54,793 nucleotides of DNA from Collinsella sp. (GTDB lineage: Bacteria; Actinomycetota; Coriobacteriia; Coriobacteriales; Coriobacteriaceae), in the NCBI GenBank assembly GCA_029264355.1, contig JARIBW010000053.1, forward strand, positions 1 through 54,793, read 5' to 3'. Of the stretch, positions 15,901 to 32,231 are shown in pieces (within the stretch, counting starts at the first letter, position 1; the number at the start of each line of letters is the position of its first letter). The position numbers and the translations under genes are program-made. The notes under the pieces are model-generated. The model worked only from the letters and a program-made list of their open reading frames with translations. It was not told the DNA's origin and did no database searches.

Positions 15901-16744
15901 CGTTGCCCACCCAACGCGCCTCGCCCTGGCGGCCACATTGGAAGGCCAGGCACTCTTCGCCCTCGAGTCTCTTTATGACCTCATAATACTTGTCAAAATC
16001 GTACTCTTGGTAACCGCCCCCCGTGCCCTTGGCGCCGTCCATCCAGACTTCGACGAACTTCCCGTTGCGCCCGTACTTGGGGTTGCCCAAGATCTCCTCG
16101 AGCTGCCTGACATAGGACTGGTTGTAGTCGCCGTTATGGTCCTCCTTGCAATCGGGAGGGCAATCAGCCCGGCACTCTCCCCTGCCATAGGTGGGATCGT
16201 TGATGTCCCACGGGGAAAGATACAGGCCCATGTCGAGATTTTGCCTGGTGCACTCCTCGGAGATCTTCTCCAGCACGTCTATCTTTGAGGTAGTGGCGGC
16301 CATATCGTATTCGCTGGAGGCGCTATCCCACATGCGGAACCCGTCATGATGCTTGGCCGTCACGATAAGGCGCTTGAAACCCGCCTCCTTGATGGTCTTG
16401 ACATACTCGGCCGCATCGAACGATTCGAGCGCATCCATATACTCCGTCGCGGTTTTCCACGTCACACCGTCGTGTGTGGTGCCGTAATGCTCCCCCCATT
16501 CGATATTCGCCATGGTGTTGGGCCCAAAGTGGCAAAAGGCGGCAAGCTCCTCTTTGGCATAGGCGTATTGACAGGCATTGGGGACGACGTCGTCCTTTTC
16601 GGGGGCGACGACCGCACCCGAGCTCAGCTCCGCATCACCCACCCATGTCTCGACGGCAAAAGCAACCGCCGGCGTGAACGCCAGCGCCGATGCGATGGCC
16701 GCGGCAGCGGCCCAACGGGGAACTACTCGAATGGTATCGCGCAT
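12959..16744 (-). CDS. LPXTG cell-wall-anchored GH29 alpha-L-fucosidase, multidomain
   Basis: Extracellular fucosidase of 1261 residues. In order: Sec signal peptide (1-30, ending AVAFA); GH29 catalytic domain (about 55-410) with KHHDGF at 131-136 and probable nucleophile Asp236 in VEVWMDGAKG; F5/8 type C carbohydrate-binding domain (about 418-548); a beta-rich galactose-binding-like region (555-685); Calx-beta domain (about 688-796); helical FIVAR-like segment (800-870); CBM35-like domain (885-1053); an InlB-like beta repeat (1055-1137); a Pro/Asp spacer (1141-1206); and LPKTG at 1227-1231 with hydrophobic helix and RRR tail. It would release fucose from host glycans at the cell surface. The start is the ATG at the signal peptide, after a GGGGTGG site; the open frame upstream has no signal. 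Confidence 0.92.
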   Translation of the reverse strand: MRDTIRVVPRWAAAAAIASALAFTPAVAFAVETWVGDAELSSGAVVAPEKDDVVPNACQYAYAKEELAAFCHFGPNTMANIEWGEHYGTTHDGVTWKTATEYMDALESFDAAEYVKTIKEAGFKRLIVTAKHHDGFRMWDSASSEYDMAATTSKIDVLEKISEECTRQNLDMGLYLSPWDINDPTYGRGECRADCPPDCKEDHNGDYNQSYVRQLEEILGNPKYGRNGKFVEVWMDGAKGTGGGYQEYDFDKYYEVIKRLEGEECLAFQCGRQGEARWVGNEDGVAHDTTWNRVKMLKDWDQSKNNQPFEQNKTTDSSTGKSVIVGSPDGEKWLMPECDARITSGWFWGPSKAAPKSLAELGTMYFMSVGRGAPLLLNVPLDTKGEITPEIKGRVEEFGASVREGFSDDLTRANEGKGRARATAQVTSVHQNSASYGPAKMLDGQDDTYWSADEAGEQSVLIKLPAATQFDVVSMEEAIENGQRIESFKVMYRNGADGNWAEFGSGGTVGARRLVRAPKVTATEVKIELTPLDGKKVQLSEVGLFKMGRTLEAPSVIPGGMETLDNAKMTLGDEADWTKNGGSQFIDGTNMFSKKKGAFATFSFTGSKFLIIGTVDPGHGPMKVTIDGRDSEAQVVNTSGERKTGQVLFASPTLSHGEHSVKIEVVEQDKAVAIDAAAVLNNNGAGMLDFSEASIVMDEDSTYDLGIKRTGGSSGPLEVVVNFEPGTAVQGDFHTDPVRVKFADGETEKTVQVRTKRNNTGANASVNTQFSVSMTVVSPGDLVIGPQGVTTVNIVDRDSNYTKEKLEEALKRAEAAPVNEGSHVRSDAEAYRAALVNARAILADGSAGVDQRFHAIKALEAAMDNPAVRTEAYTKENPFVFPSIVGETQTIEAELGGLVDDPSSNGAGETKYPAEVKEIAGASGGKVVNSLNNKDTLAIPFTVERAGEYEVTLRYMSGSNDNKVAWGVATAPTGEGLALSEADGEERALGPDADLSGGAIVEPGEVGAGGTDQSEFKTVKFTFKVKEPGSSTLVFTGPVENSPRLDKFDIKLKADSLAEFGIVSLAGTGGTVEPAGYMRPTGGTARFTVTPREGYRIRSVAVAGEPVEIDGREGAYSLEVPFNEAAKEDLTVIAVFDKKAVDPVGPIDPAPEPSPQPDPDPTPKPDPAPQPDPDPAPNPAPQPDPDPAPKPDPAPQPDPDPAPKPESGDGQQGDGGPSKPGATDGALPKTGDPIADTAAVALISTGLLTAGVVARRRTWRS
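13130..13295 (-). repeat. Coding repeat: Pro/Asp wall-spanning spacer
   Basis: Short direct repeats (GGGTCGGGATCCGGCTGCGG and variants) encode QPDPDPAPKPDPAP-type units in the fucosidase, immediately before the sortase signal. Such segments typically span the peptidoglycan. Confidence 0.85.
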
Positions 16745-16866
16745 GCGCCACCCCAATTCCGAACGTGGATGCAGGATCAAGTTTTCAAAACACTTTGAAT
16801 CTATCCGAACACAATCGGACATATCACAATAGTTCGGTAAGTGGTCGCTTTTCCCATTTTAGCGAT

Positions 16867-17107: not shown

Positions 17108-18043
17108 CTAAAGCTCGGTGACCTCGACGGCGTTGTAGACCTCGTCCCAGCGCTCGATGACCAGGTGGCCGGTCTGCGGGTCCATGGCGTTGAGCTTGCC
17201 GCAGGTGTTGGCCGTCTTGAGAACGGTCACGTCGTCGGCGCCGGCGGCGATGGCATGGGCGAACCCGGCGATGGTGGAGTCCCCGGAGCCGGTGGCGTTC
17301 ACGGCCGGGATCGGCGGGGTCACGGCGCGGTAGATCTTATCGCCGTGGAAGGCGAAGGAGCCGGCGGCGCCCATGGACACGACGACCCACGGGATACCGG
17401 CGAAACGCTCATCGGCCTTGAGGGCGGCGGCGAGCTCGGTGACCTGCTCGGGCGTGTAGGAGGTTCCCAGCAGCGCGTTGATCTCGGTCAGGTTGGGCTT
17501 CACCAGCGTGGGCTTGACCTCCGCCTCGAGCGCGGCGTCCAAAGAAGCGCCCGAGGTGTCGAGCAGCACCGGGACATCGTGCTTGGCGGCCTCGGCGACC
17601 ATGCCGGCGTAGAAATCCGCGGGCACGCCCTTGGGCAGGGAGCCGGAGATGGTCACGCAATCGGCCTTGGCCACGAGCTCGGCGAACTTGGCGGAGAAGG
17701 CGGCGAGTTCCTCGGCGGAGATCTCGGGGCCGCTCTCGAGCAGCTCGGTCTGGTTGCCCTCATGCAGGATGTTCAGGCAGATGCGGGTCTCGCCTGCGAT
17801 GGGCGTGAAGTCGTGGTCGATGCCATCCGCATCCATGAGGGAGCCCATGTAGGCGCCCATGTGGCCGCCGAGCAAGCCGGTGGCGACGACGTCATCGCCG
17901 AGCTGGCACAGCACGCGGCTCACGTTCAGGCCCTTGCCGCCGGCGGTCTTCTTCGGCGCGACGCGGTTCACGTCGTCGATGATCAGCTTGTCCAGCTGAT
18001 ACGCCGTATCGATGGCGGGATTCATGGTGACGGTCAGTATCAT
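17108..18043 (-). CDS. lacC: PfkB-family tagatose-6-phosphate / 1-phosphofructokinase
   Basis: Ribokinase-fold sugar kinase of 311 residues in the LacC/FruK group. It begins MILTVTMNPAID, typical of the group, and carries the N-terminal TAGGKGLNVSR signature, ISGSLPKGV, LVKPNLTEI and the C-terminal NATGSGDS motif with the catalytic Asp (usually GAGDS). Next to lacAB and a mutarotase, phosphorylation of tagatose-6-P to tagatose-1,6-bisphosphate is the likely role, though fructose-1-phosphate kinase cannot be excluded from sequence alone. The start follows AGGAGG by four bases. It lies 102 bp downstream of lacX and ends at a strong terminator. Confidence 0.85.
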   Translation of the reverse strand: MILTVTMNPAIDTAYQLDKLIIDDVNRVAPKKTAGGKGLNVSRVLCQLGDDVVATGLLGGHMGAYMGSLMDADGIDHDFTPIAGETRICLNILHEGNQTELLESGPEISAEELAAFSAKFAELVAKADCVTISGSLPKGVPADFYAGMVAEAAKHDVPVLLDTSGASLDAALEAEVKPTLVKPNLTEINALLGTSYTPEQVTELAAALKADERFAGIPWVVVSMGAAGSFAFHGDKIYRAVTPPIPAVNATGSGDSTIAGFAHAIAAGADDVTVLKTANTCGKLNAMDPQTGHLVIERWDEVYNAVEVTEL

Positions 18044-18145
18044 GGTTCCTCCTATTCTCGGGCCTCGGGACCCGGGGCCCGGTACAACACGATGAAGCCC
18101 GATTCGACGCGACGGCGGTATCGCCATCGCACGGGCACGCAGGCG

Positions 18146-19271: not shown

Positions 19272-19799
19272 TTAGTCGTGGTACTCGCCGCGATCCCACT
19301 TCTCGATGAACTCATCGAAGAAGTGCGGGTCGGCCTGAGCCTCGGCGTCGGCCTTGTTCACGGCGTCGATCTTTGCCACGAGGGCGTCGCGCTCCGGGGT
19401 CGGCTCGTACTCCGCCTCGAGGAAGGCGAGCATGATGTCGGCCATCAGGAACTCGCCGGTGATCTTGCCGCCGAAACCGACGATGTTGGCGTTGAGCTCG
19501 CGGCGGGCGTACAGGGCGCTCGTCATATCGCGGACGAGCGCGCAGCGGGCGCCGGGAACCTTGTTGACGGAGTTGGTGATGCCGATGCCGGTGCCGCACA
19601 AAACGACTCCCAGGTCCGCCTTACCAGACGCGACCGCCTCGCCGACGGCCTTGCCGTAAATCGGGTAATGGGTGCGGGTATGGCTGTACGTGCCGCAGTC
19701 CAGCACCTCGTAACCGGCCTCCTCGAGGCGGTCGTGCAGATAGGTCTTTTCATCGGTGACGATGTGGTCGCAGCCGAGGGCGACGATCTTCTTGGTCAT
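19272..19799 (-). CDS. lacB: Galactose-6-phosphate isomerase subunit LacB
   Basis: 175-residue RpiB/LacA/LacB-fold subunit; with LacA it converts galactose-6-phosphate to tagatose-6-phosphate. It is strikingly like LacB of streptococci and lactococci: [65 protein letters not shown] and the C-terminal [10 protein letters not shown]. The start follows GGGGGA. It is 12 bp downstream of lacA in one operon. Such close similarity to low-GC lactic acid bacteria suggests a shared or transferred tagatose pathway. Confidence 0.95.
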
Positions 19800-19811: not shown

Positions 19812-20240
19812 TTAGGCCATCTTGTTGAGCATGTCGACGCGGATCTGATGACGGCCGGCGGCGTAGTCGGCCTTCAGGAACTCGCGGGCGATCTTCTTCG
19901 CGACCTCGGTGCCGACGACGGTGGAACCCAGGCAGACGATGCGGGCGTTGTTGTGCTCGCGGGTCATGTAGGCGCTGCGCTCATCGGAGATATTGGCCGC
20001 GACCATCCCCTTCACGCGCGTGGCCGCCAGGTAGCTGCCCACGCCATACGCGTCGAAGCAAAGACCCTGCGACCCCTCGTTCTCGAGCAGGTCGGCTGCG
20101 ACGGCGCAGGCGGAATCCACAAAATCCGCCGCGGGGGTCTCGGACAGGTCCACGACCTCGTGGCCATCGGCGAGGAGCGTCTCCTTGACGACCTCCTTCA
20201 AGGGCATGCCCTCGGCGTCGGATGCGATTACGACTCTCAT
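19812..20240 (-). CDS. lacA: Galactose-6-phosphate isomerase subunit LacA
   Basis: 142-residue partner of LacB, the usual LacA length. RpiB-fold features include the start MRVVIASDAEGMPLKE, LCFDAYGVGSYLA in place of the CGTG loop, VKGMVAANISDERSAYMTREHNNARIVCLG and the KADYAAGRHQIRVDMLNKM end. AAGGAGG precedes the ATG by six bases. It is first in the lacA-lacB operon, behind a promoter overlapped by three decamer repeats. Confidence 0.93.
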   Translation of the reverse strand: MRVVIASDAEGMPLKEVVKETLLADGHEVVDLSETPAADFVDSACAVAADLLENEGSQGLCFDAYGVGSYLAATRVKGMVAANISDERSAYMTREHNNARIVCLGSTVVGTEVAKKIAREFLKADYAAGRHQIRVDMLNKMA

Positions 20241-20290: not shown

Positions 20291-20327
20291 ATAAACAAAT
20301 ATAAACATATATGAACATTTTTGTCGA
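20291..20327 (-). promoter_or_regulatory. lacAB promoter with overlapping decamer operator repeats
   Basis: On the minus strand TCGACA (20327-20322) and TTATAT (20304-20299) are 17 bp apart. Three exactly tandem decamers overlap the spacer and -10 (20320-20291), read as ATGTTCATAT, ATGTTTATAT, TTGTTTATAA. The pair ATGTTC-N4-ATGTTT recurs upstream of PTS 2. Position over the promoter fits repression, most likely by a DeoR protein of this locus (inference). Confidence 0.6.
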
Positions 20328-20382
20328 GAAGAAATGCCCTGATTCACAAGTTCGCAAGTCTTGTACACACTTTCGTACAAAT

Positions 20383-20408
20383 ATGCGCACATGTCACCAT
20401 GTGCGCAT
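20383..20408 (-). terminator. Hairpin between the TauE/SafE gene and lacA
   Basis: Perfect 11-bp inverted repeat ATGCGCACATG / CATGTGCGCAT with a 4-nt loop, about 40 bp after the exporter stop, followed by ATTTGT. Possible weak terminator; a palindromic operator is also possible. A smaller TTGTAC-N8-GTACAA repeat lies at 20361-20380. Confidence 0.45.
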
Positions 20409-20447
20409 ACGAATGATCGTGTCATTTTCCCGTCGGGCGATGGGGCG

Positions 20448-21230
20448 TCACCCGCAATAGCGGAAGACGTTGAAGCCGCTGATGAGGATGATGAGCACCA
20501 TGAGCCCGCAGAACAGCTTGTCGACCGCGGCGTCGTCTATATGCCTGTTCGCGGCGCGGCCCGCGATCCCGCCGAGGATGCCGCATGCCGCCATGCCGGC
20601 CAACAGCACGACGTCCAGATTGGAGACGCCGGCCACCAGCGCCGCGATCGTGCTCGCCGCCTGGGAGAACAAGATGATGTACAGGGAGCTTTGGGCCGCG
20701 CGCTTCGTGCTCATGGTGAAGAAGTAGAACAGCACCACCAGGTTGATGGGGCCTCCGCCGATGCCCAGGAACGACGATGATATGCCGAGCACCAGGCCGA
20801 TGGCCACGCACGCCGCCACGCCGGTCACCCGGTGCGTGGAGATCTTCTCCTTGTTCAGGGTGTAGACCAATGTCCCCACGGTGACGAGCATGAGCGTGCC
20901 CGCCTGCACCGCACCGGCCATATTGGCATCGCCGAAAAACGCCGCCACGGCGGAGAACATCTGACGCCCCGCCAAGCCGCCCAAGGCGGCGCCGACCGCC
21001 AGGGGCGTGTCGATGGCCGGGTCGATCTCGGAATCGCCCGACACCTTGGATTTGATCACCGAGTAGCACGTCATGGACAAGACGGTGCACCCGGAGAGGA
21101 AGTTGATGGTCGCCACATCGGTCGCGGCGACCGCGTCCATGACGGGCTTGATGATGATGCCGCCGCCGATGCCGCAGATGGCACCGATGGTCGAGGCGAA
21201 AAACGCGATTGCGAATACGATGATCAACAT
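20448..21230 (-). CDS. TauE/SafE-family anion exporter
   Basis: Eight-helix membrane protein of 260 residues in the TauE/SafE (4-toluene sulfonate uptake/sulfite exporter) family. Both half-repeats carry the family glycine motif: GAICGIGGGIIIKP near residue 20 and SSFLGIGGGPINL near residue 155. Members export sulfite, sulfoacetate or related anions. Being last in a run with two sulfatases and their activase, export of the sulfate or sulfite released by desulfation is the natural hypothesis (inference). It lies 24 bp downstream of the small membrane protein gene. The ribosome site is weak. Confidence 0.85.
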   Translation of the reverse strand: MLIIVFAIAFFASTIGAICGIGGGIIIKPVMDAVAATDVATINFLSGCTVLSMTCYSVIKSKVSGDSEIDPAIDTPLAVGAALGGLAGRQMFSAVAAFFGDANMAGAVQAGTLMLVTVGTLVYTLNKEKISTHRVTGVAACVAIGLVLGISSSFLGIGGGPINLVVLFYFFTMSTKRAAQSSLYIILFSQAASTIAALVAGVSNLDVVLLAGMAACGILGGIAGRAANRHIDDAAVDKLFCGLMVLIILISGFNVFRYCG

Positions 21231-21254
21231 ATGATCCGGTCAGATCCTTCCCTC

Positions 21255-21863
21255 TTACTTGGCGATGGCCGCGTCCATCAGACGCTCGGCGCGCTCGCGA
21301 TACGACTTGGAGCGCCCCTCGTCTCCCTTGTTTTCATACTGCACCGCCAGCATCTGGCACTGCAGGGCCTCTTCGAGACCGCTCATCCCGGAAAGCGCCC
21401 GCTCCATCTCGTCGATATAGGCGAAGGAGTGCTTGAGGAAGATCTCGTACGTGCGACGGTTCGCGCGCGCGGGCCCCTCATCCCCCCGGGCCTCCAGGTA
21501 CTCGAGCGCCTGGCGCGCATGCGGCTCGTCCTCGACCTCGACGTAGAAGGCGAACGCCTTGGCGGCGAGGGCGAGCTTTTGCTCCTCGTTCATCTTGAGG
21601 CCGCCCATCTCGGAGAGAAGCGCCGCGGTCCGGTCCGCGTCATCCAGGGCCAAAAACGCGTTCAGCCGCATGAACAGCACGTTGTATTTGGGATACAGCA
21701 CGCTGGTGAGCGGACGGTCGAGGACCTCCAGGTACTTCTCAAGATCGCCCTCGCGCAGATACGCCTCGAGCTTTGCGAACGTGGTGCGCTTCTGAACCTC
21801 CATATAAACGGTGAACAGCAGCGCGACCACCATGATGACGATGCCGATCGTCTTGATATCCAT
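21255..21863 (-). CDS. Membrane-anchored helical protein of unknown function in the sulfatase cluster
   Basis: 202 residues. One hydrophobic segment (about 5-20, IGIVIMVVALLFTVYM) is followed by a wholly helical, charged region that looks like degenerate tetratricopeptide units (for example LEAYLREGDLEKYLEVLD, then LNAFLALDDADRTAALLSEM). No catalytic motif. The N-terminal helix lacks a signal-peptidase site, so the protein is probably anchored with the helical part in the cytoplasm. AGGAGAGG precedes the start. It sits 15 bp after sulfatase 1 and 24 bp before the TauE/SafE exporter, so translation with both is likely. I do not recognise the family; a scaffold or regulator for the exporter is possible. 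Confidence 0.7.
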   Translation of the reverse strand: MDIKTIGIVIMVVALLFTVYMEVQKRTTFAKLEAYLREGDLEKYLEVLDRPLTSVLYPKYNVLFMRLNAFLALDDADRTAALLSEMGGLKMNEEQKLALAAKAFAFYVEVEDEPHARQALEYLEARGDEGPARANRRTYEIFLKHSFAYIDEMERALSGMSGLEEALQCQMLAVQYENKGDEGRSKSYRERAERLMDAAIAK

Positions 21864-21878
21864 GTTTGCCTACCTCTC

Positions 21879-23348
21879 CTACAGCGGCGTGTGCTCGAGC
21901 ATGACCGCGGGCGTGCGGCCCACCACCAGCTCCCCATCCTCGACATAGCCCTCCTCGCGGCCGTCGAGCTCCCCGATCAGGCATGCGCGCAGCTCGGCGA
22001 TGCGCTCGGCGCACTCGGGGCGGTCGATGAGGTCGGTGGTCTCATGCGGGTCGCGGGCCAAATCGAAATACCGCTCCACACCGGTCTGCGTGAACCAGAT
22101 GTACTTGTCACGGGAGGTGACGATCCACTGGTTGGCCTGCTCCCGAGTGCCGCTGTGCTCACCGTGCAGATACGGGCGATCGAGGGTCTCGGTTCCAGTC
22201 AACTCGCCCATGAGCGAGGACCCCTCGACGCCCTCGGGAACGGCGAGGCCGCACGCGTCGAGGATCGTGGGCATGATGTCCATGAGGTCCACGACGCTCG
22301 AGCTCGTCCCGCGCGCTCGATCGCCCCCGACAATCGCCACGTTCCTGCCCACATGCACGATGAGGGGAATGCGCGTCGCCCCCTCATAGGGCACGACCTT
22401 GCGGAACAGGCCGTGGTCGAACAGCATCTCCCCGTGATCGGAGCAGAACACGATCACCGTGTCATGGTAGGTCTCGTCATTCTCGAGCGCCGTGATGAGA
22501 CGGCCGATCTGGTGGTCCATATGCGTGATGCAGGCATAGTAACCGGCCATGGCCTCGCGCCGCAGCTCGGCGTCGCGGCAGCCGTGCACGCTGTCGAGGA
22601 CCATCCCGTCGCGCTCGGTGGCTTCGACGTCGTCCCAGTCGCCGACGGCGGGCGGGCGCAGGTCCATGTCCCGGTACAGGTCGAAGTAGGTTTGCGGCGC
22701 GTCGAAGGGCGGATGGGGCCGCACGAAACTCGTCATGAGGAAGAAGGGACGGGTCCGGTCCCGGGTCTCCAAGAAGCGGATGGACTCGTCCACCACCCAA
22801 TTGGTGGGGTGCAGGCGCTCCTCGTAGGCCCAGGGATGGGTGATCCAGGAGTTGTTCTCCACTCCCGATCCATTCACATCGGCGAACTCCCCCAGCTCGT
22901 TTTTGAGGAAGCGCATGTAGTCGTCGGAGACGTTTTGATGCATCCAGTAGGGCAGGTTGGCTCGACGGTAATGTCCGATATAGCCGTCATGCAGGCGCAT
23001 GTGCTCGAACCCGCAACCCAGACGCGGGGGATGCACGTGCATCTTGCCCACCTGCGCGGTCTGGTATCCGCCGAGACGCATCTCCTCGGCGAGCATGTGA
23101 TCGTACTCCCACGCGATTCCGTCTTGATACCCCACGCGGCCCGTTCCGGCGGGCGTCTTGCCGCAAAACAGCGAGGCGCGGGCGGGGATGCAGCTCGGGC
23201 AGGCGGAATAGGCGTTCTCGAAGAGCATACCGTCGGCGGCGAGCGTGTCGAGATAGGGGGTCTTCACGTCCGGATGGCCGGCGATGCCCAGGCAATCGCC
23301 TCGCATCTGATCGCACATGATGAGCAGGACGTTGGGTTGCTGGGACAT
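21879..23348 (-). CDS. Sulfatase 1 (type I, Cys-type, no signal peptide)
   Basis: Alkaline-phosphatase-superfamily sulfatase, 489 residues. Metal-site NVLLIMCDQMRGD at the N-terminus, formylglycine precursor Cys53 in the C-x-P-x-R motif CIPARASLFCG, and the late VIVFCSDHGEM metal motif are all present. The Cys form needs the anaerobic activase encoded just upstream. The ATG follows GGAG at six bases; the frame stays open upstream to a TTG without a ribosome site. It starts straight into the catalytic fold with no signal peptide or membrane helix, so it should act in the cytoplasm. Substrate unknown; sulfated amino sugar, galactose or a small disaccharide from the PTS is likely. Confidence 0.9.
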   Translation of the reverse strand: MSQQPNVLLIMCDQMRGDCLGIAGHPDVKTPYLDTLAADGMLFENAYSACPSCIPARASLFCGKTPAGTGRVGYQDGIAWEYDHMLAEEMRLGGYQTAQVGKMHVHPPRLGCGFEHMRLHDGYIGHYRRANLPYWMHQNVSDDYMRFLKNELGEFADVNGSGVENNSWITHPWAYEERLHPTNWVVDESIRFLETRDRTRPFFLMTSFVRPHPPFDAPQTYFDLYRDMDLRPPAVGDWDDVEATERDGMVLDSVHGCRDAELRREAMAGYYACITHMDHQIGRLITALENDETYHDTVIVFCSDHGEMLFDHGLFRKVVPYEGATRIPLIVHVGRNVAIVGGDRARGTSSSVVDLMDIMPTILDACGLAVPEGVEGSSLMGELTGTETLDRPYLHGEHSGTREQANQWIVTSRDKYIWFTQTGVERYFDLARDPHETTDLIDRPECAERIAELRACLIGELDGREEGYVEDGELVVGRTPAVMLEHTPL

Positions 23349-23444
23349 AAGGGGCTCCAAACTCGCGGGACGGGTGCGGGTGACGGGGATTCGCCGATGC
23401 CGCCTCTACCGGCGGCGACATGGGGGCGAGAACGGTCAGCGGGG

Positions 23445-24548
23445 TCAACGGCGGGCGAGAAGTCGCGCCACGTGCCTCAAACCCGGATAGGCGTACTCCA
23501 AAAACTCGCGCAGGCCGCAGTAATCCTCGCGGTAATACGCGATGTTCAGGCGCTTGCAGTTGCGATGGCACATTCCCTCGAAGGGGCAATCCGCGCAACG
23601 CGAACAGGGGCGGCGGGGCTCGCCCAAAAACGCTCGCATCGCCTCGCACGTGGCCATCTCCACCAAGTCATCGGTGCGGATGTCCCCCACGCGGTACTCG
23701 TCCAGGGCGTAGAAATCGCAGGGATACACCGACCCGTCGCTTTCGACCACGAATTGCGGGGCGCACCGACCGAGCATGCCGCATTGCGAGGGAAACTGCC
23801 CGAGCGCCATCTGCATGATGTTCTCGAACAGCCAGATGCTCACATAGCGGCCCTCGGCAAGCTCGCGTCGCCACACGTCGAACAATCGGCAATAAAAAGA
23901 GCAGAACGCGTGCGGATCGAGGGAAAACGCATCGGCGTCCTCATCGAGGCCCGGCAAGCAGGGAATGAACTGCATATGCGTGACCTCCTCCCTTTTGATG
24001 AACGAGAAGACGCGCTGCGGATGCGCGGCCATCTGGGAGGTCAGGACCGACAAGATGTTGACGTCGACGCCCGCCGCGCGCAGGAGGCGCACGCCGCGCA
24101 TGACGCGGGCATAGGTGGGGGCACCGTGCGCGTCCGGGCGCATCGAGTCGTGGAGCTCGCGATACGCGTCCACGGACACACCAACGAGAAACCCGTGCTC
24201 GGCGAAGAACGCCGCCCATTCGTCATCGATGAGATAGCCGTTGGTCTGCAGGGCCCAGCTCACCTGCTGCCGTTCGCGACGGCGCTCGACCCGCTCGACG
24301 AAGGAACGGAAGAAGTCCAGGCCCGCGAGCGTGGGCTCCCCTCCCTGGAACGCGAAGGAAACGTGCGCGTCGGGGGCGACGGCCAGGGCGCGGTCGATGA
24401 TGGCATCCGCCACATCCCAACCCATCACCCGTGCACGGCGCTCCTCGCGATGCGCGGCCACGTCGCAGTAAAAGCAGTACCTGCACCGCATGTTGCAGGC
24501 ACTGGACGCCGGTTTTATCAGAAAGCCGATATGCTTCGCCGCGCACAT
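23445..24548 (-). CDS. Anaerobic sulfatase-maturating enzyme (radical SAM, SPASM)
   Basis: 367-residue radical-SAM protein that oxidises the active-site Cys of sulfatases to formylglycine. The SAM-cluster motif CNMRCRYC is near residue 18, GGEP near 69, and a C-terminal SPASM domain supplies the remaining cysteines (CGMLGRC, VYPCDFY, RPCSRCADCPFEGMCHRNC) for two auxiliary clusters. The start MCAAKHIGF places the first cysteine motif where anSMEs have it; the longer open frame lacks a ribosome site. Located between its two probable substrates, which both carry Cys-type motifs. Requires strictly anaerobic conditions. Confidence 0.92.
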   Translation of the reverse strand: MCAAKHIGFLIKPASSACNMRCRYCFYCDVAAHREERRARVMGWDVADAIIDRALAVAPDAHVSFAFQGGEPTLAGLDFFRSFVERVERRRERQQVSWALQTNGYLIDDEWAAFFAEHGFLVGVSVDAYRELHDSMRPDAHGAPTYARVMRGVRLLRAAGVDVNILSVLTSQMAAHPQRVFSFIKREEVTHMQFIPCLPGLDEDADAFSLDPHAFCSFYCRLFDVWRRELAEGRYVSIWLFENIMQMALGQFPSQCGMLGRCAPQFVVESDGSVYPCDFYALDEYRVGDIRTDDLVEMATCEAMRAFLGEPRRPCSRCADCPFEGMCHRNCKRLNIAYYREDYCGLREFLEYAYPGLRHVARLLARR

Positions 24549-24651
24549 GACGCCAAGCCCCCCTTGCGTGGACAGCCCCATCCCCAAGGGCCGGATACCA
24601 CCACCTTACCCGAGGCGATGGCATCCGGCCCCCACAAAACGCATGAGAATC

Positions 24652-26148
24652 CTAGGCAAGGCCCAGGCGCTCCTTCTGCTCGGCGGGCGCCTCGTGCTCC
24701 TCCAGGCCGTGCAGCAGCAGGCCGATCATGCGCTCCTCTGCGGGATCGCCCGTGCCGACCAGGTTGTTCACCTGACCGTAGTCGTTCTCCAAATCGAAGA
24801 GCATGGTCTGCTCGACCTCCGCCAGGGGCGTGGCGCCCTCGATCTGGGCCGGCTTCTTGCACGGGATCTTGAACAGCGGGTACCTGGTGCGCTTGAAGTA
24901 GCGCCCGCACTCGATCTCCTCCGGGCAGTCCGATCCCATCTTCTTGCGAATGGTGTGCGGCAGCGCGGCGTACTCGAAGCAGGGCTGGTTGCCGGGCACC
25001 GGGGCGCGGAAGTACGTGTAGCGGCCATCGGTCACGTTCACCGTCATGGCATGGACGCCGTACAGGGCGTAATCGCGCGTGGGCGCCTCGGGGTCGCTCA
25101 TGAGCGGGACGAGGGAGACGCCGCAGACGTCAGAGGGGATCTCGCAGCCGTGGGCGTCGAGCACCGTGGGCATGATGTCGATCGCCTGCGTGAGCTGATG
25201 GGCGTGCTCGCCGGCGCGGGCGTTGCCCGGGAAGTGCACGATGAAGGGCAGGTGCGCGAGCTCGTTGTACAGGTGCATGTAGTTCTTGCCCATGTAGTCG
25301 CGCTCACCCAGGAAGTAGCCATGGTCGGTGGTCACCAGGACCATGGTGTCGTCCAACATGCCGTGCTCGTCGAGCTTGTCGATCAGCTTGCCGAACCAGC
25401 GGTCGGTCATGGTCACCAGGGCCTTGTAACGGCGCTGGAGGTAATCCTCGGCCCCGGCGTCGACATCGGTGGCGGAAACGCGCTTGTACTCGGGAATCTC
25501 GAAGTAATCGCGATCCAGGTCGCCCACGCCGCCGTACATCTCCATGTACTCGTCCGGCACGTCGAAGGGCTCATGCGGGTCGAACGCCTCGACCATCAGG
25601 AAGAAATCGTCCTTGCCCGCGTTGCCATCAACCCAATCGCAGGCGGACTGGAAGGTCTTGGGGCTCGGCATGTCCTCCTCGTTCGGCCACAGCTGCCGAT
25701 TCTTCTGATACTGCTCGCGCACGCGGCCGTAGAAAGTCTCGGGCATGTTGTCGGGCTCGTCGATGCGGCTGACCCACGGATCGCCCTCCTGGCCGCGGTA
25801 ATAATCCCAGGTGTTGAACTCCTGGAGATAGCCCTCGCCGCCGGTGCGCAGGTAGTGGCAGTGATCGGTGGTGATGTGGCAGAAGTTGCCATTCGCGCGC
25901 AGGCAGGCCGGCAGCGTGACGTCGAAGGGCTCGATGGGACCCCAGGGGCGCTCGAGGAAGTTGTAGCGACCGGTGAGGATGTCGCGGCGCGCGGGCATGC
26001 AGGGCGCCGATCCGATCCAATGGTTGTCGAACACGCAGGATCGCTCGGCGAACGCATCGAAGTTGGGCGTCTGGACGTCGGTCGCGGGGTTGTAACACGA
26101 CAGGACGTCACGGCGCAGGGTATCCATGAGCACGAGAACGGTTCTCAT
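24652..26148 (-). CDS. Sulfatase 2 (type I, Cys-type, no signal peptide)
   Basis: 498-residue sulfatase. It begins MRTVLVLMDTLRRDVLSCYNP, with the metal Asp of the D-T-L-R-R-D motif, and has formylglycine precursor Cys50 in CMPARRDILTGR and the late metal motif VLVTTDHGYFLGERD. It differs from sulfatase 1 in sequence and so probably in substrate position. The start ATG follows AAAGGA by five bases; there is no signal peptide, again implying cytoplasmic action. It follows PTS 2 IID by 155 bp with a terminator-like hairpin between, so its expression could be partly attenuated relative to the PTS. Confidence 0.9.
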   Translation of the reverse strand: MRTVLVLMDTLRRDVLSCYNPATDVQTPNFDAFAERSCVFDNHWIGSAPCMPARRDILTGRYNFLERPWGPIEPFDVTLPACLRANGNFCHITTDHCHYLRTGGEGYLQEFNTWDYYRGQEGDPWVSRIDEPDNMPETFYGRVREQYQKNRQLWPNEEDMPSPKTFQSACDWVDGNAGKDDFFLMVEAFDPHEPFDVPDEYMEMYGGVGDLDRDYFEIPEYKRVSATDVDAGAEDYLQRRYKALVTMTDRWFGKLIDKLDEHGMLDDTMVLVTTDHGYFLGERDYMGKNYMHLYNELAHLPFIVHFPGNARAGEHAHQLTQAIDIMPTVLDAHGCEIPSDVCGVSLVPLMSDPEAPTRDYALYGVHAMTVNVTDGRYTYFRAPVPGNQPCFEYAALPHTIRKKMGSDCPEEIECGRYFKRTRYPLFKIPCKKPAQIEGATPLAEVEQTMLFDLENDYGQVNNLVGTGDPAEERMIGLLLHGLEEHEAPAEQKERLGLA

Positions 26149-26303: not shown

Positions 26304-27134
26304 TTAGGCGAAGATCTTAAACGCCGGGAAGTAGAAGCCGATGGCGGCGAACACGAGGGCGAACACGATCAGGCCGATGATGATCTGAGCGGAGTTCTTG
26401 CCCTGGCCCTTCTTGAGCAGGCGGTAGCAGATAAAGGTCAGCACGACGGGCAGCAGGAAGGGCAGCACCTTGTCGAGCTGGTCCTGCAGCACCAGCGGGT
26501 CGCCCTCGCCGAAGGCGAACTGCACGGCGAGCTTGAGCTTGACGGTCGTGGCGATGAGGCCGCCGGTGACCATGACGCCCAGCACGTTGGCGAGGTTGCC
26601 CAGTCGGTCGAAGACCTGGACGCCCGCCTTCTCGACGAGCTCCATGCCCATCTCGTAGCCCTTGTGCAGGCCGAAGTACTTCAGCGGCCAGTACAGAAGG
26701 TTGATGAGCAGGAACATCACGAGCGGGCCGACGATGGAGCCGTTATCGACGCACATGGAGGCGCCGATGGAGCCGGCGATGGGGAACCAGGTGAGGTTCA
26801 GCAGCGAGTCGCCCAGACCGGCGAAGGGGCCCATGAGGGAGGTCTTGATGCCGACGACGGTATCCTTCTGGTCCTCGTCCGTGGACTCCTCGAGCGCCGC
26901 GGTGATGCCCAGGATGAAGGGGATCGCCAGCGGGTGGGTGTTGAAGTACTCGAGGTGGCGCTTCATCGCGTTGACGCGCTCCTCTTTGGGGGCGTCCTTG
27001 TAGAGCTCCTCGAGGACGGGGGCGAAGCAGTAGGTCAGCGAAAGCGACTGCATGCGCTCGTAGTTGTGCGCGAACTGGCAACCCTGGGTGCGCAGCAGGA
27101 CCTTGTTCAGGGTCGACTTAGAGATCTTTCCCAT
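26304..27134 (-). CDS. PTS 2 mannose-family EIID
   Basis: Membrane component IID of a mannose/GalNAc-type phosphotransferase system, 276 residues. Family features are LNKVLLRTQGCQFAHNYERMQ at the N-terminus, the HPLAIPFILGITAALEE segment, GPFAGLGDSLLNLTWFPIAGSIGA, and C-terminal hydrophobic helices. Its ATG overlaps the IIC stop as TAATG, so translation is coupled. With IIC it forms the sugar channel. Substrate family likely GalNAc, galactosamine or a galactose derivative given the neighbours. Confidence 0.93.
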   Translation of the reverse strand: MGKISKSTLNKVLLRTQGCQFAHNYERMQSLSLTYCFAPVLEELYKDAPKEERVNAMKRHLEYFNTHPLAIPFILGITAALEESTDEDQKDTVVGIKTSLMGPFAGLGDSLLNLTWFPIAGSIGASMCVDNGSIVGPLVMFLLINLLYWPLKYFGLHKGYEMGMELVEKAGVQVFDRLGNLANVLGVMVTGGLIATTVKLKLAVQFAFGEGDPLVLQDQLDKVLPFLLPVVLTFICYRLLKKGQGKNSAQIIIGLIVFALVFAAIGFYFPAFKIFA

Positions 27135-27940
27135 TAGAGATCGTACTCCTCGTCATCATCGGAGCCGGCAGCGGCGGCAACCGGGGCGGGCTGGTTCTTC
27201 TGACCCTCCGTAATGACATCCCATACGCCGGCGGCGGCGCAGGCGGCGAGGGCGATGCCCACCGTCGGGACGTTGAGGAAGGCGGCCATGATGAATCCGG
27301 CGAGCAGGAAGATCCACATGTTCTTCTTCATCATCATGGTGAGGAGCATGGCCAGGCCGACGGCGGGCATCATGCCGCCTGCCGTGGAGAAGCCGGAGAG
27401 GACCCACGGAACCTGATTCTGCAGGAAGTTCATGATGTCCTCGATCACGAAGGAGCCGATGCCCGTCGCGATGAAGACCGGGATGGCGCGGGTCAGGAAG
27501 AAGCACAGGGCGCCGGTCCAGAAGTACTTGTTCACAGCGTTGAACTTACCGGACTCGATGGCCTTGTCCGCACCGTGGACGAGGGAGACGTTGGTGGTCA
27601 TGACCAGGATGTTCAGCTGCTGGACGAGGGTCGCGGTCGGGATGCCGATGGCGACGGCCAGAGCGATGGCGGAAGCGGTGTCGCCGCCGCCCATGATGCC
27701 CAGCGCGGCACCGACGATGGTGCCGGAGATGACATCCGGCGGAACATAGGCGCCGATGTTGTTGACGCCGAGCCACATGAGCTCCATGGTGGCGCCGATC
27801 ATGATGGCGGTCGTCATGTCGCCGAGGATGATTCCGACGCCGACAGATGCCAGCAGGGGCTTGCGGAAGCCCAGATGGGGACCGAACTGGTCCCAGGTGC
27901 ACAGACCCGCCCAGATGGCGAGCATAAGTGCCTGAAGCAT
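27134..27940 (-). CDS. PTS 2 mannose-family EIIC
   Basis: 268-residue membrane component IIC, with the family segments TTAIMIGATMELMWLGVNNIGAYVPPD and STAGGMMPAVGLAMLL, seven or more hydrophobic helices, and an acidic hydrophilic tail. The ATG at MLQALMLAIWAGL follows AAGGAGAGG. Co-translated with IID. The IIB gene lies 81 bp upstream. Confidence 0.93.
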   Translation of the reverse strand: MLQALMLAIWAGLCTWDQFGPHLGFRKPLLASVGVGIILGDMTTAIMIGATMELMWLGVNNIGAYVPPDVISGTIVGAALGIMGGGDTASAIALAVAIGIPTATLVQQLNILVMTTNVSLVHGADKAIESGKFNAVNKYFWTGALCFFLTRAIPVFIATGIGSFVIEDIMNFLQNQVPWVLSGFSTAGGMMPAVGLAMLLTMMMKKNMWIFLLAGFIMAAFLNVPTVGIALAACAAAGVWDVITEGQKNQPAPVAAAAGSDDDEEYDL

Positions 27941-28021
27941 AAGCCTCTCCTTCCCTATTCGTCCGCCGATCGCTTCCGGCGGGCGCACCCCGGGCCCATT
28001 TGCCCGGAGCCGGTTACCGAC

Positions 28022-28498
28022 TTAGTAGTTCTTGAGGAGCTCGGAGACCGGCTCCTTGGAATCGCGCGTGGTGGTCTGCATCCAGCACTCGACGCCCAGC
28101 CCGATGAGCTCCTCGAAGGCGGCCTTCTCCTCGGCGGTGACGGACATGTTCTTGTGCAGGCGGTGACGCTGGTCGTTGAAGCGCATGCCGGAGACGTTCA
28201 GGTAATCGAACGGAAGGCCGTTCTCATGGAGCTTGAGGGCGTCGATGGGGTTGGTGAACAGCACCATCGTGGCCTTCTTGAGCTCCGTCTTCTTGAGCAC
28301 GTCGATGAACTTCTCGACGCCGAAGACGCTGACCTTGATATCGGGGGCGGCGAGGCCGGCGACGGACTTCTGGACGGGGTCGTTGGCGACCTTGTCGGAA
28401 ACGATGATGGCGGACTCGATGCCGAAGTCCGGGATCCAGGTCGTGGCGACCTGCCCGTGAATCAGGCGGTCATCGATGTCAACGAGTTTGAGTGCCAT
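28022..28498 (-). CDS. PTS 2 mannose-family EIIB
   Basis: 158-residue cytoplasmic phosphocarrier. The motif IDDRLIHGQVATTW carries phosphorylated His14. AAAGGAG lies six bases before the ATG. Receives phosphate from IIA and passes it to the incoming sugar at the IIC/IID channel. Confidence 0.94.
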   Translation of the reverse strand: MALKLVDIDDRLIHGQVATTWIPDFGIESAIIVSDKVANDPVQKSVAGLAAPDIKVSVFGVEKFIDVLKKTELKKATMVLFTNPIDALKLHENGLPFDYLNVSGMRFNDQRHRLHKNMSVTAEEKAAFEELIGLGVECWMQTTTRDSKEPVSELLKNY

Positions 28499-28618
28499 GA
28501 TGTTCTCCTTTGTCGTTCGCACTTCGTTTCACTCTCGGCGATATGCCGCATAGCGGCCAGGGGCGCGGCCCCGCAAGGACTCGCCGCCCCTCGGGTACCG
28601 ATATCGGCCGGCAGTCGG

Positions 28619-29056
28619 TTAGAGGTCCAGGTCGTCCTCGTCCTCGGAGGCCGGCACCGGGGCGGTGATCTCCTGCTGGGCGGTCGCATGGGCGCCGACG
28701 AGCTGCTTGCGCACCGCATCGGCGGAATCGAGGCCGTCGCGGGTCAGCAGGAGCTCGACGGCGACGGGCATGGACAGGCCCGTGTAGGCGATCATGTCCA
28801 TGCCGTTGAGCAGGCAGCGCGTGGTCACGTTGAACGGGGTCCCACCGTAGATGTCGCACAGGGTCACGACAAGGTCGCACTCGGCCTTGAGGCCCTCATA
28901 GGCCTCGCGCATCTCGGCCTCGAAGGTCTCCAGGCTCTTTTCGGCGGTGAGGCCGAGGGCGACGACGTCGGGCTGCTTGCCCGCGATCATCTCGACGGCG
29001 CCCAATGCCGCCCGTGCAAACTCTCCGTGGCTCGCGAGGATGACTCCGATGCGCAT
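28619..29056 (-). CDS. PTS 2 mannose-family EIIA
   Basis: 145-residue PTS IIA of the mannose class. His10 in ILASHGEFA is the probable phosphorylation site; TLCDIYGGTPFN is the typical active-site loop. An acidic tail follows residue 130. AAAGGAC precedes the ATG. First gene of the PTS 2 operon, behind a divergent promoter region containing the ATGTTC-N4-ATGTTT motif. Confidence 0.93.
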   Translation of the reverse strand: MRIGVILASHGEFARAALGAVEMIAGKQPDVVALGLTAEKSLETFEAEMREAYEGLKAECDLVVTLCDIYGGTPFNVTTRCLLNGMDMIAYTGLSMPVAVELLLTRDGLDSADAVRKQLVGAHATAQQEITAPVPASEDEDDLDL

Positions 29057-29100
29057 CTGCTGTCCTTTCAAACTTGTGATTTTGTGCTCGTTCTGTTTAG

Positions 29101-29131
29101 TTATGTTCGTCTATGTTTGATTGTTGGTCAA
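29101..29131. promoter_or_regulatory. PTS 2 / DeoR divergent promoter with decamer operator
   Basis: ATGTTCGTCT followed by ATGTTTGATT (29103-29122) reproduces the ATGTTC-N4-ATGTTT spacing seen at the lacAB promoter. A TTGACC hexamer on the minus strand (29131-29126) could be the PTS 2 -35, putting the repeats in the spacer and -10 area. Further TTTATGTTG and CATAAACG half-like sites lie at 29253-29289 in front of the DeoR gene. Confidence 0.5.
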
Positions 29132-29311: not shown

Positions 29312-30076
29312 ATGAAATCCGAACGTCAGCAGGCCATCCTCGATCTGCTCGATCAGCGCCATTCCGCAACGGTCAACGAGATGTCCGATGCCCTGGGGGT
29401 CTCGGACATGACCGTCAGGCGCGATCTTTCCGAGCTCGCCGACAAGGGCCTCCTCATGCGCGTCCACGGAGGCGCGCAGCTTCCGCGCTCGGCGCGCGGA
29501 ACCTCGCTCTCCCGCGTGATCTCTCACGAGGAGAAGCAGCACTCCCACGTCGGCCAGAAGCGCGCCGCCGCCATGGCCGCCGCGCGCACCGTCGCCGCCG
29601 GCGACACGATCTTCCTCGGAGGCGGCTCGACCCTCGAGCTCATGTGCTCTTACCTGCCGAAAGAGGATATCCGCGTGGTCACCAACAGCCTTCCGGTCTT
29701 AAACCTGCTGGCAGACAACCCGCATGTCGACCTCTTCTTCGTGGGGGGCATGATGCGCCATGACACGCGCGTATTCACCATGCCCTACAACGGGCGTGAG
29801 CTCTACGGGCTCTCGGCGCCGAAGGCATACGTGTCGGCCACCGGCATCTTCGGCAACGAGGTCTTCGGATCGCGTCCCGACGCCACCATGGTCCTCTCAG
29901 ACGTCCTCGCGCGTGCGCGGGAGCGCTACCTCGTCGTGGACGCCGAGAAGGTCGGCAGGCGCGATTTCTGCCAATTCAGCACCTTGGAAAAAATGACCGC
30001 CGCATTCGTCAACGCCGACGCGGAGCCTCAGACCATCGAGGCGCTTCGCGCCTACACCTCCGTCATCACCGCATAA
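29312..30076 (+). CDS. DeoR-family transcriptional regulator (upstream of tandem pair)
   Basis: 254-residue repressor: N-terminal winged helix (2-60, with VNEMSDALGVSDMTVRRDLSEL and GLLMRVHGGA), then a sugar-phosphate sensor domain (FLGGGSTLELM, GGMMRHDTRVFTMP, DAEKVGRRDF). Divergent from the PTS 2 operon, so control of that operon is the likely role. The ribosome site is poor (AAGAAAG...AGG). It is followed after 16 bp by a second DeoR gene. Confidence 0.9.
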   Translation: MKSERQQAILDLLDQRHSATVNEMSDALGVSDMTVRRDLSELADKGLLMRVHGGAQLPRSARGTSLSRVISHEEKQHSHVGQKRAAAMAAARTVAAGDTIFLGGGSTLELMCSYLPKEDIRVVTNSLPVLNLLADNPHVDLFFVGGMMRHDTRVFTMPYNGRELYGLSAPKAYVSATGIFGNEVFGSRPDATMVLSDVLARARERYLVVDAEKVGRRDFCQFSTLEKMTAAFVNADAEPQTIEALRAYTSVITA

Positions 30077-30092: not shown

Positions 30093-30854
30093 ATGCTCAA
30101 ATCAGAACGCCATGAACATCTGCTCGACCTTTGCACCCAGCGCGGGATGGTCACCGTCGCCCAGGCGGCGAAGATCTTCGGCATATCCGAGATGACCGCG
30201 AGAAGGGATTTCGACGAACTCGCGCAGAGCGGCGAGGTCGTGCGCGAACACGGGGGCATCCGCCTCTCCACCGGCTCCCCCACCGTCGGCGAAGTGCCCT
30301 TCTTCGAGAAGCTCTCGATTCGATCGGACGAAAAGGAGCGCATCGCCCGTCGCGCCACGGCCCTGATCGGCGATCACGACACCATCTTCTTGGGGCCCGG
30401 CTCGACCTGCGCGCTCATCGCCCGCGCGTTGCCGCCCGTGAGGCTGCGCGTCATCACCAACAGCATCATCGTGCTGAACATGCTCCAATCGCGTGGAGAC
30501 ATAGAGATCTGCGCCCTGGGCGGTCAATACCGGAAGCGCTCCGGATCATTCGTGGGCCCCGTGGCCGAAGATGCGCTGGCGCCCCTGGGCATAGACACGT
30601 GCTTCATCGGGACGAACGGCATCCTCGCCCAATCCATCTCATGCTCCAACCTCGAGGAGGGGCGCCTGCAGGCGCTCGCCTGCGATCGGGCCGCCAAGCG
30701 CTACCTCGTGTGCGACTCGAGCAAGATCGGCCAGATGGATTTCTTCGGCTTCTACAACCTCGATCAGATGGACGCCGTCGTGACCGATGCCAACATCACC
30801 GATCGCCAGCGCGCTATGGTCCTCGAGTCCACACGGGTCATAGTCGCCGACTAA
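30093..30854 (+). CDS. DeoR-family transcriptional regulator (downstream of tandem pair)
   Basis: 253 residues, same architecture as its neighbour (VAQAAKIFGISEMTARRDFDEL, then GEVVREHGG; sensor motifs FLGPGSTCALI, ALGGQYRKRSGSFVGP, DSSKIGQMDF) but clearly divergent in sequence, so this is an old duplication or independent acquisition. Co-transcribed with the first gene. It may read a different sugar phosphate or bind the same operators. Ends before a bidirectional hairpin shared with nagA. Confidence 0.9.
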   Translation: MLKSERHEHLLDLCTQRGMVTVAQAAKIFGISEMTARRDFDELAQSGEVVREHGGIRLSTGSPTVGEVPFFEKLSIRSDEKERIARRATALIGDHDTIFLGPGSTCALIARALPPVRLRVITNSIIVLNMLQSRGDIEICALGGQYRKRSGSFVGPVAEDALAPLGIDTCFIGTNGILAQSISCSNLEEGRLQALACDRAAKRYLVCDSSKIGQMDFFGFYNLDQMDAVVTDANITDRQRAMVLESTRVIVAD

Positions 30855-30961: not shown

Positions 30962-32125
30962 CTACTTCTCGACGTAGACGCTCTCTCCGCCGAGATAGGT
31001 CTCGACGAGGGACAGGTCCGGATCGAGCACGACGAAGTCGGCGTGGCGACCCGGGCGGATGGAGCCGCACTCATCGGCGATGTCGTTGGCCTCGGCAGGG
31101 GCCTGCGTGGCCATGTAGACGGCCTCGGCCTTGGTGGCGATGCCCCACTCGAAGACGTTCTTGACGGCGTCCTTCATGTTCAGGATGGAACCGGCCAGGG
31201 AGCCGCCGTCCTTCAGGCGCGCGGTGCCACCTGCCACAACCACGGGCAGCTCACCCAGGAAGTAATCGCCGTCGGGCATGCCGCCGGCGCACATGCAGTC
31301 GGTGATGAGCGCGACATGCTCGTGGCCCTTGGCGTGCATCACGATGCCCGCGGAGATGGGGTTGACGTGGTGACCGTCGCAGATGAGCTCGGAGAAGGAC
31401 TTGTCCTGGCTGGAAAGGGCCGCGCCCACCATACCGGGCTCGCGGTGATGCAGGCCGCTCATGCCGTTGTACGTGTGCACGAAGACCTTGGCACCCGCGT
31501 CCAGGCAGGCCCGGGCCTGCTCGCAGGTGGCGGCGGAGTGGCCGAGGGCCACAACGACGCCGGACTTGACGGCCTCGGCGGTGAACTCGACGGCGCCGTC
31601 GTACTCGGGGGCGACCGCGATCTTCTTGACGAGGCCGTGCGCAGCGGCCTGCCAGGCGTTCAGCTTCTCCATGGTGGGGGCGGAGAGATAAGCCGGGTTC
31701 TGGGCGCCCTTGTACTTCTCGGTGAAGAAGGGGCCCTCGAGGAAGATGCCCTGGATGCGGGCGTGCGGGGTCTCGTCGCCGGACTCGACGTACTCGGCGA
31801 CGGATGCGCAGGCGCGCTCGAGCTGCTCGGTGCTCGCCGTGAGCGTGGTGGGCAGGTAGCTGGTCACGCCGTTGCGCAGGATGCCACGGGAGACGACGGC
31901 CACGCTCTCGGACTCGCAGTCCATGATGTCATGATCGTCGAAGCCGTGGATATGGGTGTCGACGTAGCCGGGGGCGATCTCATGACCGGAGTAGTCGCGA
32001 ATCTCGCAGTCGGGGGCCTCGGTCACGTACTCGCCGAAAACACCGTCCTCGACCATGAGGTAACCGCCCCGGGCGACACGGGTGGGCAGGTAGAAGGCGT
32101 CTGCCTTGATCGCATAAGTGCTCAT
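30962..32125 (-). CDS. nagA: N-acetylglucosamine/galactosamine-6-phosphate deacetylase
   Basis: Metal-dependent amidohydrolase, 387 residues. Metal and catalytic residues: His58 and His60 (THIHG), Glu130 (LEGPFF), His196, His217 and catalytic Asp276 (ITDCMCAGG). It removes acetyl from GlcNAc-6-P or GalNAc-6-P. Placed with agaS, lacC and the class II aldolase, GalNAc-6-P is the likelier substrate (AgaA role), but GlcNAc-6-P is possible since sequence does not separate them. AGGAG precedes the ATG by five bases. A CTGG...CCAG site for the GntR protein lies 32 bp upstream. Confidence 0.92.
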   Translation of the reverse strand: MSTYAIKADAFYLPTRVARGGYLMVEDGVFGEYVTEAPDCEIRDYSGHEIAPGYVDTHIHGFDDHDIMDCESESVAVVSRGILRNGVTSYLPTTLTASTEQLERACASVAEYVESGDETPHARIQGIFLEGPFFTEKYKGAQNPAYLSAPTMEKLNAWQAAAHGLVKKIAVAPEYDGAVEFTAEAVKSGVVVALGHSAATCEQARACLDAGAKVFVHTYNGMSGLHHREPGMVGAALSSQDKSFSELICDGHHVNPISAGIVMHAKGHEHVALITDCMCAGGMPDGDYFLGELPVVVAGGTARLKDGGSLAGSILNMKDAVKNVFEWGIATKAEAVYMATQAPAEANDIADECGSIRPGRHADFVVLDPDLSLVETYLGGESVYVEK

Positions 32126-32156
32126 GTGTTCTCCTAACACGAAATTGACGCACGCA

Positions 32157-32172
32157 CTGGTTTTGTACCCAG
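32157..32172. promoter_or_regulatory. Candidate GntR operator upstream of nagA
   Basis: CTGGTTTTGTACCCAG, an imperfect match to the palindrome CTGGTTATAACCAG found upstream of agaS. Confidence 0.4.
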
Positions 32173-32192
32173 AAAGCAAGGAACGAGCAGTA

Positions 32193-32231
32193 AGAAAAGC
32201 GCCCGCCCGTCCTTGCAGACCGGGCGGGCGC
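32193..32231 (-). terminator. Terminator downstream of agaS
   Basis: 11-bp GC stem (GCGCCCGCCCG / CGGGCGGGCGC) followed on the minus strand by TTTTCTTACT, about 100 bp after agaS. It separates agaS from nagA. Confidence 0.8.

Follow-up and report, generated by a model that had tools for sequence, protein, structure and literature searches.

Colonic mucin is protected by sulfation, and most work on the removal of its sulfate groups has dealt with the exported sulfatases of Bacteroides. The window analysed here, one contig of 54,793 nucleotides (JARIBW010000053.1) from a Collinsella genome of 1.56 Mb and 97.6% completeness (GCA_029264355.1), carries two sulfatase genes without signal peptides, sulfA and sulfB, in one operon with a sugar phosphotransferase system (PTS), a sulfatase activase and a TauE/SafE-family permease. 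The locus raises the question of what a gut bacterium does with sulfatases kept in the cytoplasm: which sugar reaches them, and where the released anion goes. On balance, we lean towards reading the operon as a PTS-coupled route by which a sulfated galactose is imported, phosphorylated at C6 and desulfated in the cytoplasm, the sulfate then leaving the cell. The nearest named relative in our searches was C. intestinalis DSM 13280 (93% identity for SulfA and 92% for TauE).

The operon genes are all on the minus strand and run from 29071 down to 20448 in the order EIIA (28619-29071), EIIB (28022-28522), EIIC (27134-27988), EIID (26304-27134), SulfA (24652-26148), activase (23445-24587), SulfB (21879-23360), a membrane-anchored helical protein (21255-21863) and TauE (20448-21230). 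The gaps between them, from EIIA through TauE, are 96, 33, -1, 155, 64, 99, 15 and 24 bases, with a maximum of 155. The PTS subunits are separate proteins, each scoring above its Pfam cut-off (EIIA, PF03610, 67.6 bits; EIIB, PF03830, 138.6 bits; EIIC, PF03609, 220 bits; EIID, PF03613, 277.8 bits), which places this system, PTS 2, in the mannose family. An earlier sequence-only reading of the window had named the same genes as a co-directional set, with the sulfatases downstream of PTS 2, the activase between them and the helical protein and then TauE at the end of the run; gene and domain calls agree with it throughout.

Both sulfatases match PF00884 well above its gathering score of 25 (SulfA 117 bits, SulfB 158 bits), and SulfB also scores 588.9 bits against the arylsulfatase model PRK13759 (cut-off 481). 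The C-x-P-x-R activation motif was found in both proteins (CMPAR at 50 in SulfA, CIPAR at 57 in SulfB), as was the D-H-G metal site (DHG at 275 and 308, respectively). By domain and motif, SulfA and SulfB are S1 sulfatases of the cysteine type, in which the active residue is formylglycine, and are predicted to hydrolyse sulfate esters. Their motif cysteines fit with the activase lying between them.

The SulfA start codon, ATG at 26148, is preceded by an AAAGG ribosome site, and no hydrophobic segment was found in the only longer frame, which extends upstream to 26259; a signal peptide hidden on an earlier start was thereby ruled out by hydropathy. SulfB may start at ATG 23348 or TTG 23360. Over the first 60 residues, the hydropathy of 11-residue segments peaks at 1.29 in SulfA and 1.05 in SulfB, against 2.08 for an exported fucosidase in the same window. 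The lack of a signal peptide, on which the sequence-only reading had built its case, therefore holds for both sulfatases at every plausible start, as judged by hydropathy. In every relative taken into the SulfA alignment the protein opens with the first strand of the catalytic fold, in most of them as M-R-T-(V/I)-LVLMDTLRR, and 44 sulfatase frames of related loci showed no convincing signal peptide that is conserved. The possibility that the pair is a minor part of a large exported set was rejected, since no more than three PF00884 genes were found in the genome, of which SulfA and SulfB are the only ones of ordinary sulfatase size. The third is a frame of 822 amino acids; as nearly all relatives have PF00884 members of this length, it probably encodes a lipoteichoic-acid-synthase-like enzyme.

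The activase carries the radical SAM motif CX3CX2C and a SPASM domain (PF04055, PF13186), and scores 278.6 bits against the anSME structure 4k37 in the Protein Data Bank (PDB). Its best match in the library is the anSME equivalog TIGR03942, at 333.2 bits, just under the cut-off of 349.45; we therefore call it anSME-like. In another genome an anSME-like gene contains an in-frame TAG (G044:C1:551269-552357), although that genome still has sulfatases; the activase may be broken, or the assembly in error.

With TauE as the bait, related loci were gathered without regard to sulfatases. The complete order from EIIABCD through SulfA, activase, SulfB and helical protein to TauE was found in C. intestinalis (L023) and in seven loci of Thermophilibacter, Olsenella and Atopobiaceae (L024 to L028, L030 and L031; SulfB is split over two frames in L028), so that the synteny proposed earlier as a check is indeed kept in relatives. 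Rearranged versions occur in Ca. Merdibacter of the Bacillota (L037) and in L064, L073 and L074; one rearranged operon belongs to an Erysipelotrichaceae genome. The PTS-SulfA-activase set of Ca. Merdibacter (L037:12244-17915) has an EIIB 88% identical to that of Collinsella, a member of the Actinomycetota, which suggests horizontal transfer.

The genes also occur together across genomes. Of the 67 family genomes, 11 carried SulfA and the same 11 the activase; TauE was present in those 11 and in five others (Fisher test, 3e-9). Among 397 genomes of the order, TauE was present in 43 and the activase in 34; 21 carried both genes, against about 3.7 expected (Fisher test, 1e-14, or 1e-6 with the family of Collinsella excluded; all of these Fisher values ignore shared ancestry). 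Every activase of at least 49% identity in the genomes of the order was accompanied by TauE. From coordinates, the two genes lie no more than 2.5 kb apart in 19 of the 21 genomes with both, in varying order and strand: in G123 the activase has a tandem TauE pair at a distance of 48 bases, and in G127 a TauE gene 0.6 kb away, with a sulfatase adjoining in each. Neither the conservation nor the co-occurrence could plausibly be due to chance. The idea that TauE strictly marks sulfatases was rejected, as the activase is missing from 22 of the 43 genomes of the order that carry TauE. The tandem TauE genes of G123 (G123:C1:1733097-1734692 and 1734740-1735843) are themselves directly beside the anSME-like gene.

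Pairing of a sulfatase with a PTS is not confined to this operon. In the related loci, 19 of the 44 sulfatase frames have a co-directional EIIC or EIID gene no more than 2.5 kb away, a share that is no background rate because the loci were selected by TauE. More mannose-family PTS sets with diverged sulfatases were found at L024:11923-16021, L026:11805-15913, L027:12166-20631, L063:1-3321 and L073:11678-15080. The diverged PTS-paired sulfatases in the same genomes are about 52% identical to SulfA, and about 24% or 63% to SulfB, a pattern that would be expected had PTS-sulfatase cassettes been duplicated to serve different sulfated sugars.

What sugar, then, is desulfated? The sequence-only reading had missed a sequence that the operon has in common with the neighbouring lacAB genes and that points to a galactose-type sugar. 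Three TGTTY units at 10-base steps precede EIIA (29094-29118, plus strand) and again lacA (20293-20317, minus strand), where they overlap a predicted sigma-70 promoter (20327-20298). The pattern was derived from these two sites themselves, which makes a chance estimate within the window partly circular; a scan of the whole genome allowing one mismatch returned exactly these two sites and none with the reversed control. The pattern has six matches in 0.98 Mb of loci from relatives, each of them preceding lacA or EIIA, those of L025, L026 and L030 being assigned to lacA by gene coordinates. A gene for a DeoR-family regulator (29312-30076, plus strand), AgaR/UlaR-like at scores under the cut-offs, is divergent from EIIA, and this arrangement is kept in relatives; a second DeoR-family gene follows (30093-30854, plus strand). 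Given the two operator sites of the genome and the conserved divergent gene, a DeoR-type repressor probably controls the PTS-sulfatase and lacAB operons and little else. Between tauE and lacA, which are 207 bases apart, there is also a perfect 12-base inverted repeat (20382-20409, TATGCGCACATG/CATGTGCGCATA), possibly the site of another regulator.

Downstream, on the minus strand, lie genes assigned with varying certainty to the enzymes of a tagatose pathway. LacA (19812-20240) exceeds the cut-off of TIGR01118 (185.1 bits against 181.1) and that of PRK08621, and LacB (19272-19799) exceeds that of PRK08622 (273.3 bits against 234) and falls under TIGR01119 and PRK12615; these are the subunits of galactose-6-phosphate isomerase. 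The lacAB operon closes at a strong terminator-like hairpin (19206-19178), after which come an aldose epimerase gene and a lacC-like tagatose-6-phosphate kinase gene (17108-18127), whose product scores 361.8 bits against TIGR01231, below its cut-off of 409.6, and above cut-off against the hexose kinase model TIGR03168. A class II ketose-bisphosphate aldolase (10929-11807) has tagatose-bisphosphate aldolase as its best match (PRK09195, 343 bits, below the cut-off of 384; TIGR00167, 310 bits, above the cut-off of 215.6). Downstream of lacC, at 12959-16822, lies the gene of the large exported fucosidase-like protein, which has a signal peptide and a C-terminal LPKTG anchor; it and the operon may be parts of the same mucin-foraging region.

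Mannose-family PTS that transport hexoses phosphorylate them at C6, so that the sulfate should sit elsewhere, leaving C3 or C4. Since the operon has no glycosidase gene, a monosaccharide is favoured as the imported form. LacAB acts on galactose 6-phosphate (PMC3755991), and the desulfated product is therefore most likely galactose 6-phosphate. 3-O-sulfogalactose is a mucin sugar, and the Bacteroides sulfatase BT1636 acts on 3S-Gal (PMC10154620).

Several findings weigh against the galactose route, some concerning the sulfatases and others TauE. The nearest solved relatives of SulfB are the E. faecium arylsulfatase EfAS (9koq, 378 bits) and BT1918 of subfamily S1_46 (321 bits). The latter, its nearest carbohydrate sulfatase, is a 3-O-sulfatase on 3S-GlcNAc and not on galactose (PMC10154620), so that the likeness would agree with O3 chemistry and disagree with galactose. 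The same route could instead serve a sulfated N-acetylhexosamine, such as N-acetylgalactosamine (GalNAc) 4-sulfate, which would enter by PTS 2, be desulfated, and then pass to NagA for deacetylation and to AgaS for isomerisation. Besides the resemblance of SulfB to a 3S-GlcNAc sulfatase, this alternative has in its favour the genes nagA (30962-32320) and agaS (32331-33503) just past the DeoR genes, and the closest named relatives of the PTS 2 IIA and IIC subunits, which are AgaF and AgaW of GalNAc systems, though at scores under the cut-off. However, the nagA neighbourhood is found in C. intestinalis and not in the Thermophilibacter and Olsenella loci in which the operon is conserved, whereas 9 of the 12 loci with EII and SulfA have lacA or lacB nearby; the shared operator precedes lacAB and not the aga genes; and a separate GalNAc-type PTS, with its EIIB above cut-off, lies past agaS and a GntR gene. 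We regard a hexosamine substrate as rather unlikely, and continue with galactose.

SulfA gives less guidance. Its best sequence match in the PDB reaches merely 97 bits, with no close solved relative, and it is equally near to phosphonate monoester hydrolases and to sulfatases. Its predicted model has a mean pLDDT of 69.6, with the motif region below 50, and no specificity was read from it; a fold search with this model gave only general matches, to S1 sulfatases and phosphonate hydrolases. It could thus be argued that SulfA and SulfB are formylglycine-dependent hydrolases of non-sugar substrates, for example aryl sulfates or phosphonate or phosphate esters, the more so as SulfB is called an arylsulfatase and EfAS, its best solved relative, is promiscuous (PMC12421950). 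But they share an operon with a sugar PTS and an operator with lacAB, and PTS-sulfatase pairs recur with diverged paralogs; we consider a non-sugar substrate very unlikely.

The last question is the fate of the anion. TauE scores 88.4 bits against PF01925 (cut-off 32.6), has several membrane helices by hydropathy and is the sole PF01925 member of the genome. PF01507, which covers CysH and CysD, was absent from the genome, the control being found in 14 of 14 test genomes; this search did not extend to ATP-sulfurylase or sulfate importers. Without a PF01507 gene for sulfate reduction, sulfate released inside the cell would be waste. Together with the linkage to the activase, this argues for export of an anion by TauE. 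Thus, in the route that the sequence-only reading had put forward, PTS import and cytoplasmic desulfation stand as the best reading, and the export step keeps its conditional standing.

Here, too, there is contrary evidence. Close TauE orthologs are found in GalNAc clusters (AgaS-NagA-SIS) of four Atopobiaceae loci (L029, L032, L049 and L054), accompanied in three of the four by the helical protein; the cluster of L032 spans L032:3996-10786. No activase was found in the genomes of these loci. Equated through TauE matches with genomes G200, G205, G206, G210 and G211 of the order set, they have long PF00884 proteins, and G200 also one shorter partial frame, and no ordinary small S1 sulfatase. 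TauE adjoins NagA in several Lachnospiraceae as well (L042, L039, L047 and L055). For loci with TauE only, the annotation by longest open reading frame was set aside as unreliable in GC-rich DNA. Inspected by eye, the sugar cluster of L042 (L042:4993-11797) holds TauE and a second TauE-like gene with ABC transporter, kinase-like, TIM-barrel and lactate-racemase-like genes.

TauE may therefore move another anion, such as acetate, sulfite or an organosulfonate, or act as an importer, and owe its place in the operon to a general handling of waste anions. The family is known to transport sulfite, sulfoacetate and 3-sulfolactate (PMC10413263), and NagA, which the close orthologs adjoin in genomes without ordinary sulfatases, releases acetate. 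On the other side, TauE is tightly linked to the activase across many genera, and sulfite is not an expected product where sulfate reduction is lacking. In the TauE tree the sulfatase-free Atopobiaceae copies are on very short branches within a sulfatase-linked Atopobiaceae clade whose nearest neighbours are also sulfatase-linked; this fits a recent loss of sulfatases, which explains these copies as well as a wider range of anions does. A different anion or direction is, in our view, possible but doubtful, and we retain sulfate export.

The helical protein before TauE has 202 residues and no match in the family search. Hydropathy shows a single hydrophobic helix at its N-terminus, and the model of the remainder is an all-helical repeat domain with a pLDDT of 92. 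Its relatives gave weak matches to hidden Markov models of tetratricopeptide repeats (TPR), and its fold matches TPR proteins such as MamA, LapB and BamD, none of them reaching an E value of 0.001. The helix is followed by positive charges, which suggests a cytoplasmic orientation of the domain. Diverged homologs lie amid the PTS genes of the GalNAc clusters of L032, L049 and L054. As a guess, the protein might tether EII, a sulfatase or TauE.

In the route that we favour, the mannose-family PTS would import a sulfated monosaccharide with a free C6 hydroxyl, most likely galactose 3- or 4-sulfate, and phosphorylate it at C6. The activase would turn the motif cysteines of SulfA and SulfB into formylglycine in the cytoplasm, and the two sulfatases would strip the sulfate from the sugar phosphate. 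The galactose 6-phosphate formed would pass through LacAB, the LacC-like kinase and the class II aldolase, and the sulfate, for which the cell has no evident use, would exit by TauE, with the TPR-like protein as a possible membrane tether and one DeoR-type repressor switching both operons. We propose only tentatively the stricter form of this scheme, in which desulfation follows phosphorylation, SulfA and/or SulfB being dedicated to a 6-phospho-sulfo-sugar (for example, 3-sulfo-galactose 6-phosphate), and the tethered TauE/SafE protein genuinely exports sulfate. The literature searched yielded no sulfatase that acts on a PTS-phosphorylated substrate and no TauE protein demonstrated to export sulfate; the operon makes both the substrate of a PTS-linked sulfatase and sulfate export by TauE/SafE testable questions. 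If the route is correct, Collinsella and its relatives would have private access to sulfated sugars that other organisms set free, and the free sulfate that they discharged into the gut could be used by sulfate reducers.

Parts of this scheme have counterparts elsewhere. Bifidobacterium breve, also a Gram-positive gut actinobacterium, reportedly uses GlcNAc 6-sulfate by its ats clusters, with a cytoplasmic sulfatase and an anSME as in Collinsella. Unlike the Collinsella operon, these clusters are said not to be of the PTS type, and the sulfate is at C6, where a C6-phosphorylating PTS could not use the sugar. The Bacteroides enzymes BT1918 (S1_46) and BT1636 (S1_20) are S1 sulfatases like SulfA and SulfB, but they are periplasmic or on the surface, BT1636 having an SPI signal peptide, and work without a PTS (PMC10154620, PMC10154612, PMC13383068). 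In the acesulfame sulfatase cluster a TauE-family protein likewise stands beside a cytoplasmic sulfatase, and its removal of the released anion is likewise proposed; there, however, the sulfatase is of the metallo-beta-lactamase type, import is by an ABC transporter and the proposed anion is sulfamate (PMC10413263).

The closest precedent, which the sequence-only reading had missed, is the SPH1922-1930 island of S. pneumoniae, for which uptake of a sulfated sugar, desulfation and anion export were proposed in 2012; its substrate was not shown, and the PTS mutant had no phenotype in carbohydrate assays (PMC3302838, PMC3283741). No experimental test of such a route in any organism was found in the literature searched. 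The Collinsella operon has, like the island, a PTS, a sulfatase, a modifying enzyme and TauE in one run. The island alone has a lactose-family PTS with two EIIC, one sulfatase, a ROK regulator and a phosphosulfolactate-synthase-like gene, whereas the Collinsella operon alone has a mannose-family PTS, two sulfatases, DeoR regulators, the operator shared with lacAB and the TPR-like anchored protein. The Collinsella operon may thus work like the pneumococcal one, yet it is not the same operon. It differs from these precedents in its PTS family, in having two sulfatases and a helical protein, in the operator that it shares with lacAB, and in that PTS-sulfatase pairs recur among diverged paralogs.

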